64,000 nucleotides of DNA, taken from contig JANXCF010000005.1 in assembly GCA_025059995.1 (NCBI GenBank), positions 1-64,000 on the forward strand, read 5' to 3'. The notes below the pieces were generated by a model. That model did not search any database, was not told where the DNA came from, and saw only the letters and a list, made by a program, of their open reading frames with translations. Each line of letters starts with the position of its first letter. Within the stretch, counting starts at the first letter, position 1. The stretch is from Leptospiraceae bacterium (GTDB taxonomy: Bacteria; Spirochaetota; Leptospiria; Leptospirales; Leptonemataceae). Both the position numbers and the translations under genes were made by a program. This document shows, piece after piece, positions 26,378 through 37,673 of the stretch.

Positions 26378-27247
26378 TTATGACTCTGATGCAGAATTGG
26401 ATGTTTTTAGTAATTTTAACACAATTTCTGGACGAATTCCTGATTGTGCTAGCATCGAAGTAGAAGCTTCCATTAATATTTGTTTCGTTGTGAGGTTAAT
26501 GATTTCTTCGGCAATATCAGCATCTCGAATCTTTGATTCTGATGCCTGAAAGTTTTCATAAGTAATCATCAGGGTTTTGGCAACATACTCTAAACGGTTA
26601 TAAAAAGCCCCTAATTCAGCTCGTTGCCTCATGACTCTATCCAGAGCTCTATCAGCAACCTCAATCATTTTGTTTGCTGTGATGGGTGTGGAGATACTTA
26701 GTGTTTTGTTTGTTTCATCACGAAAACCCAAAGATCTTGCCGTCATGGTGGAAATGAACGTTCTTTCTCTTTGGTAAGCATTAGGACCAATGTGAAACCA
26801 AATTGAACCAATTCGAGAAGTTCTTGAAAATCTTCCCAACAAAAGATCGACTCGATTGAACTCTGCTTGGGAAGCAATCCGATCAATTTCATCAATCAAT
26901 TGAGAAACTTCAACTTGCATGAGTTGCCGATCCTCTGGAGAGTATATCCCATTACTGGACTTCAAGGCTAAAGCTCGTATTCTATGGATAATTTCTGTAG
27001 TTTGTTGTAAATATCCTTCTGTGGTTTGTAGTAGACTCATTCCGTTTTCGGTGTTTCTTTCTGCTTGTTGGATGCCTTTGATCTGGGTTCTCATTTTTTC
27101 GGAAACAGCTAAATTTGTAGGATCATCGCTTGCTCGATTGATTCTTAAACCAGTAGCAACCTTTTCAGTAGATTTTTCCAGCTCCCAAAGATGAAACTTC
27201 ATCATTCGATGAGAATGTAGAGCATTTAGATTATGATGGATTTTCAT
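26378..27247 (-). CDS. flaB: Flagellin FlaB paralogue (divergent)
   Basis: A 289-residue core flagellin of the periplasmic filament. The N-terminal D0/D1 helix ([20 protein letters not shown]) and C-terminal D1/D0 helix ([19 protein letters not shown]) are conserved. The short centre contains the spirochaete-type segment around [14 protein letters not shown]. It differs from its upstream copy in many core residues and carries an extra tail (KTSNSASES) beyond the usual LLR-like end. Unlike the upstream copy it lacks a clear Shine-Dalgarno sequence and lies 61 bases downstream of it, so it is probably a less abundant filament component read from the same promoter. Confidence 0.93.
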
Positions 27248-27308: not shown

Positions 27309-28154
27309 TTATCGCAAAAGTTGTAGTACGGATTGTGGTCGTATGTTTGCTTGAGCCAACATTGCCGTTCCACTTTGAACTAGGATCTGATTTTTTGTAA
27401 AACTCACAATCGTTTCTGCAATGTCTGCATCACGTATCCTTGATTCAGAGGCTTGGGTATTTTCATACGCAACCATCAAACCTTTTGCTGCATGTTCTAA
27501 CCGATTGTAATAGGCTCCAAGATCCGCTCTTTGTTTATTGACTCTATCCAATGCTCTGTCCACGATACCAATCAAATTATTCGCGGACTCAGGAACAGAT
27601 AATGTTACAATCCCACCATCGATTCTTCTTAAGTTTAAAGCCAAAGCCGTCATGGTTTGAATATAAACTCTTTCTCGATGGTATTGATTGGGTCCAATGT
27701 GAAACCACATCGAAGAAACACGTGAACCACGAGCAAAATGCCCTTGTAGCAAAGCCATTCGGTTGAATTCTGCTTGAGAGGCAATCCGATCAATTTCATC
27801 AATCAATTGAGAAACTTCCACTTGGATCATCTGACGATCTTCTGGCGTATAAATCCCATTGGCTGATTGGATTGCAAGGACACGAATTCTTTGCAAAACA
27901 TCTGTCATTTGTTGTAGATAACCTTCTGCAGTCTGAATCATGCTCATACCATCTTCTGCATTTCTTTCTGCCTGCCTCAAACCCAAAACTTGTGCTCTCA
28001 TTTTTTCTGAAACTGCAAGTCCTGAGGCATCATCACCTGCTCTATTGATTCTGAGTCCAGAGGAAAGTTTTTCCATGTCTTTGGAAACTTCCATGTTTTG
28101 GAATTTCAAAACACGATGGGCGTTAACCGCCGACAAGTTATGATTGATAATCAT
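27309..28154 (-). CDS. flaB: Flagellin FlaB (major copy)
   Basis: A 281-residue spirochaete core flagellin. Features are [34 protein letters not shown] and the central [18 protein letters not shown] stretch seen in Leptospira-type FlaB. It ends with [20 protein letters not shown] and the terminal QSVLQLLR. There is almost no variable central domain, as expected for periplasmic filaments. AGGAGG seven bases before the ATG predicts high expression. A sigma-28-like promoter lies about 100 bases upstream. The second flagellin gene follows on the same strand. Confidence 0.96.
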
Positions 28155-30450: not shown

Positions 30451-31149
30451 TTATAAATATTTTTTAATATCCTCGAAAGATTGAAGGTGAAGTATAGCTC
30501 CTTCTCTTTCTTTTTGGTCACCGTGTCCGTAATCAGCGGCTATAAAGTAAATCCCGTTTTCGAAAGCTGCTTTTCGATCCGAGTCTCGATCCCCTATGAT
30601 AACGCATTGCTTAGGCTCAAGTTGGTATTTTTGAATGATATATGCGACCAATTGGGTTTTGTCATGAATTTTTTGGTAATCTAATGTCGGAATTTCTTTG
30701 AAGTAAGGATAAGTCTGATTGGCTTTTAAGATAGCTTCTACATAGGGTTTTCTTCCATTTGATGCAGCAAAAAGATTATATTGTTTTTTGTATAGATATT
30801 CGATGGTTTCTTTTACGTTTGGATAGTGGAGTCCTTCTCCGTTTTGGATTCGTTTTACAAAGATTTCTAAAATTTTTTGACTGATCTTTTCTCTGCCAAC
30901 TTCATCGATATCTGGAAGAAGATTAGCAAAGATTTGTTTTACCGGCAAACCGATATGGAGTATAATTTCATCAAATGAAGGAAGTTTTCGTTCGATGTTG
31001 GCTTCACGAAAATATTCCTTCATGGCTTCTTGGTAAACTTCTTCAAGCATCTCTACACTTGAGAAAATGGTTCCATCAATATCGAAAAAAAGGTGTCGTA
31101 TTTGCTTTAGGATTTTTTCTAAATCTTCATTCATCAACTGGGTTTTCAT
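30451..31149 (-). CDS. HAD-superfamily hydrolase (phosphoglycolate phosphatase-like)
   Basis: A phosphatase of about 232 residues with a helical cap. It has the nucleophile motif FFDIDGTIF, motif II in the LFAASNGRKP segment, a motif III lysine, and IIGDRDSDRKAAFENG. I choose the ATG at 31149: GGAG lies nine bases upstream and this start leaves a four-base gap after the stop of the kinase-like gene, whereas a longer start would overlap it. The tight spacing implies co-translation with that gene and perhaps opposing chemistry on the same compound, which is inference. Substrate unknown. Confidence 0.88.
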   Translation of the reverse strand: MKTQLMNEDLEKILKQIRHLFFDIDGTIFSSVEMLEEVYQEAMKEYFREANIERKLPSFDEIILHIGLPVKQIFANLLPDIDEVGREKISQKILEIFVKRIQNGEGLHYPNVKETIEYLYKKQYNLFAASNGRKPYVEAILKANQTYPYFKEIPTLDYQKIHDKTQLVAYIIQKYQLEPKQCVIIGDRDSDRKAAFENGIYFIAADYGHGDQKEREGAILHLQSFEDIKKYL

Positions 31150-31153
31150 ACAA

Positions 31154-32305
31154 TTACTCCAAATCAAAAGATTCGATGAATTGTTCAATTACATCAATGT
31201 GTTCTTTCTCAGGATTTTTTAGCAACTTGTCATCGTAATCATAAAGATGTTCATCAAAAATATGAAAATCAAACAATTTCAATTCAAACTCAGGAATGGT
31301 GATGATGATGTTTTCTGTGTGGATATCTAAGATCAATTTTTCTTCTCTGGCTAATCGTTGTGTGAAGTTAGCAAGTCTTTGCAAATCTTCTTTGATTTTG
31401 TATAGAACTCTTTTTTTGATGTTTGAAAATACCCCAATGTCAAATTCGAATTTATACTTTGGAGGTGTTATCCAGCGCAAAAGTAAATTTTCTGGATAAA
31501 CCCTTTTTCCTGATTTAATCAGTTCTTTTAGGTGTTTTCCTGCTAAAAGAACCTGAACATCCATTGGTTTGATGGCAAAAAACACGCTATCATTCAAAAA
31601 ATGTCTTCGGTATTGCATTCCTATAAAAAACCTCGTAGGGATAATAAGATCAGGAAGATTTTCTTTCACAATGGCATAGTGATAACGTTCTAATCCCAAA
31701 CGTAAAAACTGAAACCACAAAAATTCTTTTTGGAAACGATTCAGACCTTTAGAAAAGTGTTCGTAAAGTTGTAATTCTTCAGAAGTCAAAAAACGCTCAG
31801 GTTTTTTTCTTACTTCTGTAAATAAACTACCACAAAGAGGATCCGAGGGTAGAATCATTTTTGAAACCTTGATCACCATCTTCCAGGGAAGAGCATAAAC
31901 GAATTTGTAGGAACCCCTTCCAAGAAAGGTATCATACGATATAGGCATGAATTCATCCAAGAATTCTCTTCCGTATCGGTACCTCAGGCGAAAGGCGTAA
32001 GTAACAGGAAACGTTCTTTCGAAGATTTTTCGAAAAAAACCCAGTTTTCGAAGTTCCAAGTTAAGGGGGATTTCATCAATCGATGGGGCAAGGGTTTCTC
32101 GTGCTTTTTGAAGTGCTCTTTCAATCCAGTCTTCAGAAATGATTTCTGTAATACTGCTAAGAGAAGTTTTAAATAAAAGGTTTCGTTCTTCTAAATCCCG
32201 TTTTGCTTTTTGAATGCGTTCTCTGACTCGAAGAAAAATTTCTTTTAGCTTCACTTCAAAATCATCATAGAAAATTTTTCTTTTATTGTGAAAAGGAATT
32301 TTCAT
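31154..32305 (-). CDS. Divergent protein-kinase-like-fold protein
   Basis: A 383-residue protein that, read against the kinase-like (APH/ABC1/RIO) superfamily, has every core element. These are a glycine-rich loop GRGSYKFVY (129-137), an ATP-binding lysine K146 in MVIKVSK, a possible helix-C glutamate E194, the catalytic loop LDIHTENII with D327, H329 and N332, and the metal-binding D346 in LFDFHIFD in place of DFG. The spacing is plausible for a small-molecule or lipopolysaccharide-type kinase. The N-terminal 120 residues are charged helices of unknown role. It is co-transcribed with a HAD phosphatase four bases downstream and divergent from purE. The target is unknown; assignment rests on motif order only. 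Confidence 0.6.
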   Translation of the reverse strand: MKIPFHNKRKIFYDDFEVKLKEIFLRVRERIQKAKRDLEERNLLFKTSLSSITEIISEDWIERALQKARETLAPSIDEIPLNLELRKLGFFRKIFERTFPVTYAFRLRYRYGREFLDEFMPISYDTFLGRGSYKFVYALPWKMVIKVSKMILPSDPLCGSLFTEVRKKPERFLTSEELQLYEHFSKGLNRFQKEFLWFQFLRLGLERYHYAIVKENLPDLIIPTRFFIGMQYRRHFLNDSVFFAIKPMDVQVLLAGKHLKELIKSGKRVYPENLLLRWITPPKYKFEFDIGVFSNIKKRVLYKIKEDLQRLANFTQRLAREEKLILDIHTENIIITIPEFELKLFDFHIFDEHLYDYDDKLLKNPEKEHIDVIEQFIESFDLE

Positions 32306-36179: not shown

Positions 36180-37673
36180 ATGGATTTCTTTGTTCTTTTG
36201 GATGAATATTTTGATTGTATTTCTTTACCATTAAATCCAAAGCAAAAAGAACTGTTTTTCCGATTTTATCAACTTCTGAAACAAAAAAATCCAGAACTCA
36301 ACTTAACACGTATTCATTCATTAGAAGAAATCATCCGAAAACACTTTGTTGATTCATGTATGATTCTTCCTATCCTCGATAAATATAGGCTTGTTTTAAA
36401 AACTCCTATTATGGATTTAGGAACGGGGGCGGGTTTTCCTTCTATTCCTCTTGCCATACTTTTGGAAAATCAAAACTTTCTTTTAGTGGAAAGTCGAAAA
36501 AATCGAGTGGAGTTTCTTTTAGAAGTAAAAAAGGAATTGGGGTTGAATCATATCGAAATCATTCATAAAACCTTAACTTATAAGGACCAAGTTCCTTGTG
36601 GAAGTGTGATAACTCGAGCTCTAGAAAGCATGAAGGAAACAGCCATAAGAACCGCAAATTCCTTACCAAAAGAGGGATTGTTGGTATTTCTCAAAGGTCC
36701 TAATGTCCAAGAAGAACTCAATGAAATGAATGAAAAGTATTTTGAATTGATCCTAAAACATGATTATGTTCTTCCCTCAAGAGGAGAGCAAAGAGATGAA
36801 AGAACCTTGATTGTTTTTCGAAAAAAAGTATCTAAAGAATATTTACTTAGTCCTGTAGTTCGTCATTACTTTCAGCTTGAGAAGTATTTACGTTTTCGAA
36901 AGATTGAATCGAAGCAAAATGAATTCTTCAAGTTTCTAAAAAAATTAGAAAACTCCAAAGAGATCAAAAAAGAAAAACGAACCTTAATTGCAGGAGAAAA
37001 AATTGTCAATGAATTCATAGAGAAGTTTCCTGAAAAGATACAAGACTTTCTTTTTACAAAAGAATTGAGTGAGGAAAAAGTCTTAAAATATTTTAAGCTA
37101 ATCAAAAATTCAAATGTAGAATACGTATATCTTGAGAAGGAACTAGTTCGAGAGCTCGAAATAAGTGAATACTCTCCTCCTTATCTTTTGGTAGAAACAA
37201 AGGAAATCCAAGAAATAAAAGCTTTTGATTATTCATCAAGTTTTTTGATTTTGCCTCTACAAAATCCTTTGAATTTAGGAGCTTGTGTTCGAACTGCGAT
37301 TGGTTTTGGGATTTCGAATATTGTGTTAACAAAAGAAAGTGCCAATCCGTTTTTATTGAAATCCATTCGAAGTTCAAGTGGAGCAGTTTTTCTTGCAAAT
37401 TTTTTTTCTTTGAAAGACGATAAAGATAAGTTTATCAATTCTTACCGAAACAAAATTTTTCTCTTAGATATTGAAGGCGAGGATATTCGACAATTGAAAG
37501 TGATTCCTAAAAACTTCGGTTTGATCATTGGGGAAGAAGGACAAGGCATTCCTAAAGAATTTTATCAATATTCTTTACCAAAAATCACTATTCCCATCAG
37601 CAAAGAAATCGATTCTTTGAATGCAGCGGTATCTTGTGGAATTGCTTTGTTTTATTTAGAAAACCGAAAATAA
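36180..37673 (+). CDS. rsmG: RsmG-SpoU fusion: 16S rRNA G527 methyltransferase plus SPOUT methyltransferase
   Basis: A single 497-residue frame with two RNA methyltransferases. Residues 1-215 are RsmG (GidB), with the SAM motif MDLGTGAGFPSIPLAIL, the ESRKNRVEFL strand and SRGEQRDERTLIVF; this part would make m7G527 in 16S rRNA. A linker with an RNA-binding-like region (about 220-330) leads to a SpoU/TrmH knot domain, with LPLQNPLNLGACVRTAIGFG, LIIGEEGQGIPKE and ITIPISKEIDSLNAAVSCGIAL. The second target is unknown (rRNA or tRNA 2'-O). RsmG is usually a lone protein of about 210 residues. The gene stops three bases from the convergent Rrf2 gene. Confidence 0.88.
   Translation: MDFFVLLDEYFDCISLPLNPKQKELFFRFYQLLKQKNPELNLTRIHSLEEIIRKHFVDSCMILPILDKYRLVLKTPIMDLGTGAGFPSIPLAILLENQNFLLVESRKNRVEFLLEVKKELGLNHIEIIHKTLTYKDQVPCGSVITRALESMKETAIRTANSLPKEGLLVFLKGPNVQEELNEMNEKYFELILKHDYVLPSRGEQRDERTLIVFRKKVSKEYLLSPVVRHYFQLEKYLRFRKIESKQNEFFKFLKKLENSKEIKKEKRTLIAGEKIVNEFIEKFPEKIQDFLFTKELSEEKVLKYFKLIKNSNVEYVYLEKELVRELEISEYSPPYLLVETKEIQEIKAFDYSSSFLILPLQNPLNLGACVRTAIGFGISNIVLTKESANPFLLKSIRSSSGAVFLANFFSLKDDKDKFINSYRNKIFLLDIEGEDIRQLKVIPKNFGLIIGEEGQGIPKEFYQYSLPKITIPISKEIDSLNAAVSCGIALFYLENRK

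Follow-up and report, generated by a model that had tools for sequence, protein, structure and literature searches.

The described systems closest to the protein analysed here belong to the kinase-like (PKL) superfamily, in which most of the ten key residues are dispensable in some family and in which the Rio and KdoK families are described as carrying an insert between the ATP-binding lysine and alpha-C (PMC1821047). Members of the KdoK family (PF06293), namely WaaP, WaaY and KdkA, are kinase-like and basic, as is the family described below, and in E. coli the GT4 gene waaG overlaps the kinase gene waaP. UbiB/ABC1 proteins (PF03109) carry a DxHxxN catalytic loop, and the APH/choline kinase family (PF01636) has a motif of the same style. 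Kinase-like proteins have also been described from the same broad lineage as our locus: the CP1 pseudokinases of Leptospira interrogans, whose motifs (KILR/VLIK and WLG/DFS) and domain layout differ from those of the present family (PMC12599244), which by comparison with that description stands apart in keeping its catalytic residues. Our literature search found no paper joining Leptospira with "heptose kinase", and those parts of the literature mentioning "Kdo kinase" that were available contain nothing describing this family.

The gene under study lies within a 64,000-nt stretch of spirochete DNA, hereafter the window. The original prediction of a divergent kinase-fold protein had its coordinates right, and the open reading frame lies on the minus strand (32305..31154, 383 aa), the plus strand across 31154-32305 being full of stops. 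In three sister species (G001, G002 and G003) the sole start in the aligned position is a GTG at residue 18 of the 383-aa frame, and since these species can start only there, the protein is probably 366 aa long, with its true start at GTG 32254. The features of the locus, with residues numbered on the 383-aa frame, are as follows.

30451..31149, minus strand: HAD-family phosphatase; its ATG lies 4 nt past the kinase stop, and its GGAG overlaps that stop
31154..32254, minus strand: kinase-like gene, likely coding extent; GTG start, stop TAA at 31156-31154
32255..32305, minus strand: 5' extension of the frame from an upstream ATG, probably untranslated; missing in aligned relatives
32006..32254, minus strand: N-terminal region, residues 18-100; basic, predicted helical at low confidence
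31895..31921, minus strand: glycine-rich loop GRGSYKFVY, residues 129-137; near-invariant, in register with the Pkinase Gly loop when the N-lobe is aligned alone
31868..31870, minus strand: putative ATP-binding lysine K146 (VIK); invariant, aligned to the AIK lysine of Pkinase
31688..31690, minus strand: E206, candidate alpha-C glutamate (LERYHY..LPDL..PT); invariant, assigned by spacing, with E177 as the alternative
31310..31327, minus strand: putative catalytic loop D327-I-H-T-E-N332; D, H, E and N invariant, aligned to Pkinase HRDxxxxN and ABC1 DxHxxN
31262..31270, minus strand: putative metal-binding D346-F-H348; D and H invariant, aligned to DFG

Elsewhere in the window, an open reading frame of 497 aa (36180-37673, plus strand) appears by eye to fuse an RsmG/GidB-type 16S rRNA methyltransferase to a SpoU/TrmH-type RNA methyltransferase, and a tandem pair of similar flagellin-like genes (289 and 281 aa) lies on the minus strand (26378-27247 and 27309-28154).

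Conservation was assessed across 22 aligned relatives from two families, with 44-69% identity to the window protein. The glycine loop, K146, the D-x-H-x-x-N loop and the DF(H) motif stand where they had been noted, in kinase order, and their key residues are invariant in these relatives, the invariant positions including G129, G131, K134, K146, E177, E206, D327, H329, N332, D346 and H348. Conservation in homologues had been the proposed check on K146, D327, N332 and D346, and free variation at these residues was not seen. Close pairs show strong purifying selection, with dN/dS at 0.025 (dS 1.1) and 0.08 (dS 1.07) in the two whose dS could be measured short of saturation. Together with in-register profile alignments, this selection and the invariance of the ATP, metal and catalytic residues suggest that the protein is probably active, in support of the earlier argument for an active enzyme. 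The 120-residue helical N-terminal region of the original prediction is retained in part: it is predicted to be helical, at low confidence, and is probably some 80-100 residues long. Residues ~74-121, around its end, are well conserved (LP.D..LR.S...R..YE..FPVSHVFR), and the protein is basic (pI 8.9-9.8).

The remark that the rest of the protein matched nothing recognisable holds, as no family model of Pfam, NCBIfam or PHROGs claims it, and scans of Pfam, NCBIfam and the PDB with the single window sequence found nothing. Below curated thresholds, PF00069 (Pkinase) matches the catalytic loop in four family members, the best at 16.5 bits (E 0.0058) against a cut-off of 31.7 bits, and reaches E 0.00074 against catalytic-region fragments. 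A phage Ser/Thr kinase family matches the same place. Compared with PDB sequences, the catalytic segment finds its best match in a Ser/Thr kinase, in register but at a non-significant E of 0.5. Weak PDB matches to a PAS domain and to SERA5 are functionally unrelated and were judged to be chance. There was no Pfam match to PF06293, PF03109 or the APH family, and a PF06293 search of the window genome (G000), which carries separate true ABC1 proteins, misses the window gene.

Profile-profile comparison gave a score of 38 against Pkinase, for which 120 column shuffles reached at most 25, although this profile, drawn from 30 sequences in related genomes, was the deepest available and is thereby favoured in ranking. 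The ABC1 score of 31 also exceeded its shuffle maximum (26 in 120 column shuffles), with only the catalytic loop aligning, in register. The APH score of 21 fell inside the shuffle range (maximum 24), and with no Pfam match either, membership of that family was dropped. Aligned alone, the N-lobe places the glycine loop and K146 on their Pkinase counterparts, weakly but in register. In a test against Pkinase the family reached a probability of 47%, compared with 14.5% for E. coli WaaP and 76% for WaaY, a yardstick that is only rough because both E. coli proteins were entered as single sequences. Direct comparison by hhalign, likewise with single sequences, detected no relation in sequence to either of them: WaaP scored 0.1%, out of register, and WaaY 0.2%, with the catalytic loop in register.

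Mapped onto the PKL scheme, G131, K146, D327, N332 and D346 are the equivalents of G52, K72, D166, N171 and D184, all invariant, and the likewise invariant E206 and P223 are by their spacing candidates for E91 (the alpha-C Glu, for which E177 is an alternative) and P104 (beta4). The set, candidates included, is collinear with that of Pkinase. Equivalents of PKL H158 and H164 are missing: the window protein has A at position 319, and position 325 is an invariant I. Unlike Pkinase, the family has DxHxxN in place of HRDxxxxN and DFH in place of DFG, and falls under every Pfam threshold. The sequence contains neither an APE motif nor an HRD arginine; about 37 residues follow DFH, which leaves no activation segment, and D220 of helix F has no clear equivalent there. 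Some 60 residues separate K146 from E206. The DxHxxN and DFH motifs, the lost histidines, the short tail and the K146-E206 insert argue against an ordinary peptide kinase.

AlphaFold models built on a four-sequence alignment had a mean pLDDT of 41 for the full length (41-47 over runs) and 46.5 for residues 100-383; in them strands and helices follow one another as in kinases, at a confidence too low to claim a fold. A fold search with the shorter model returned no match, a result to which so poor a model gives no meaning, and we attribute the quality of the models to the shallow alignment. Homology to kinases is thus weak but consistent, and the protein very probably belongs to the kinase-like superfamily: of the original assignment, the invariant motifs and the in-register alignments to protein kinases stand, and the bilobal fold itself is putative.

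The distribution of the family was traced by a protein search in 61 genomes and profile searches in 48 and 393 genomes (E <= 0.001). The gene is present in 27 genomes, all in two families (f1 and f2) of the window's order, and is single-copy in each, the one exception being a gene split over two contigs. At this threshold it was absent from the other genomes sampled within the class and the phylum (393 of the phylum), and no relatives were found among the viral contigs and plasmids searched. Matches outside the order at E 0.04-0.6 were short and fragmentary, and we set them aside as noise. Within the order it is missing from two f1 genomes, G012 (0.9 Mb, 76% complete) and G013 (2.2 Mb, 91%), and from G021, a fragmented assembly (77%, 930 contigs). 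The gene is near-universal and single-copy in the window's order, and among the genomes searched the family is confined to this one spirochete order, probably Leptospirales.

Gene neighbourhood provides the main clue to function. In 10 genomes, representing 8 of the 11 kinase-bearing f1 genera, a GT4 glycosyltransferase gene lies directly upstream and usually overlaps the kinase start, the layout seen in E. coli waaG-waaP. A PfkB sugar kinase gene usually precedes GT4 in f1 loci, and a gene for an LtaS/MdoB-like membrane protein of sulfatase fold is near the kinase in most of them. In the window's genus GT4 is unlinked; the PfkB-GT4 pair is kept elsewhere (G000:C3) and the kinase retains its HAD neighbour. 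Linked or not, a GT4 ortholog scores above the cut-off in 25 of the 27 kinase-bearing genomes, a 26th being truncated at a contig edge (G010) and only G018 lacking one. G012 and G013, which have no kinase, lack GT4 as well. This co-occurrence is confounded by phylogeny. In f2 the kinase follows a RecQ or GH18-like gene and GT4 sits beside polA, with no envelope theme; these neighbours say little about substrate. A Kdo transferase family is present throughout the class, and in G001 its gene is close upstream of the kinase.

PfkB overlapping GT4 recurs throughout f1 (L198 6089-8250 in G000:C3, L199, L200 and L201), next to genes for the LtaS/MdoB-like membrane protein and for a 400-aa protein that matches nothing in Pfam, and to a NUDIX-like gene; the neighbourhood is an uncharacterised conserved block. 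One GT4 ortholog that scores like those of the order itself occurs in another order, in a genome from which the kinase is absent (G039:C23:9145-10251), possibly through lateral transfer or contamination. In two sister species, two successive genes for sigma-54-type AAA+ activators lie near the kinase (L029 8621-10809 and L030 8613-10816).

In 12 of the 16 f1 loci examined the HAD gene comes directly after the kinase, overlapping it or within 4 nt in several, and in the window the 4-nt gap and the GGAG overlapping the kinase stop place the two genes in one operon. The HAD family reaches genomes that lack the kinase (G012, G013 and those of the Turneriellaceae-like f3) and is unlinked to the kinase in f2 and several f1 genera; because it occurs without the kinase and is often unlinked, its tie to the kinase looks looser than that of GT4.

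We tentatively favour a role for the protein as a kinase of an envelope glycoconjugate, working with a GT4 partner and a HAD accessory enzyme. As an atypical kinase-like enzyme that its residues predict to be catalytically competent, and without the activation segment of peptide kinases, it would use ATP to phosphorylate a sugar or glycolipid headgroup of the glycoconjugate; the GT4 glycosyltransferase would be its partner in the pathway, biochemically as well as genomically, and the HAD enzyme may serve as an accessory phosphatase. The earlier suggestion of an envelope glycolipid substrate gains indirect support from gene context, through GT4 upstream in eight genera and its co-occurrence. 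Against it stand the unlinked GT4 of the window's genus, the f2 neighbourhoods and the presence of GT4 without the kinase in G039, outside the order. The more specific proposal, that this is an order-specific kinase family for an envelope glycoconjugate sugar, independent of WaaP/KdkA and wired to GT4 in like manner, is doubtful.

Some of the same context could be read as that of a metabolite kinase acting on a sugar phosphate or a nucleoside-like compound, coupled with HAD in phosphorylation/dephosphorylation or repair and with GT4 as an incidental neighbour. The HAD gene directly downstream in those 12 loci, the window included, would fit such an enzyme, as would the PfkB sugar kinase within the same operon and the lack of an activation segment, whereas the extension of HAD to kinase-less genomes and its unlinked position in f2 and several f1 genera speak against it, and we regard it as unlikely.

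Equally, we think it unlikely that the family comprises Rio/Bud32-like protein kinases, or a kinase fold with an AMPylation, ATPase or regulatory pseudokinase-like role, whose target would be a conserved cellular protein. A target of this kind would account for the near-universal single copy and for the f2 neighbourhoods with RecQ and polA. Among distant similarities, that to Ser/Thr kinases is the best, ahead of APH, and the long insert from K146 to alpha-C has its parallel in Rio as well as in KdoK (PMC1821047). Against this, the ranking of Pkinase owes something to the depth of its profile, and the contexts are inconsistent, RecQ adjacency being confined to f2.

That the motifs are a chance resemblance in an unrelated conserved fold is very improbable, even though library matches all stay under their cut-offs, the two AlphaFold models are of poor quality and the fold search is empty. 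Each lobe aligns to kinases on its own, and the two do so in the right order; the Pkinase and ABC1 scores exceed all column shuffles, and the invariant residues are exactly the catalytic ones.

A single-copy gene kept in nearly all of the order, held under strong purifying selection and claimed by no family model is probably important for the biology of that order. If the protein is a kinase, it represents a new divergent member family of the kinase-like superfamily, one whose C-lobe is minimal and whose metal motif is DFH. If the favoured role in envelope decoration is also true, the family would supply a missing step in the LPS/glycolipid pathway, which in Leptospira has been described as poorly understood (PMC13111663).
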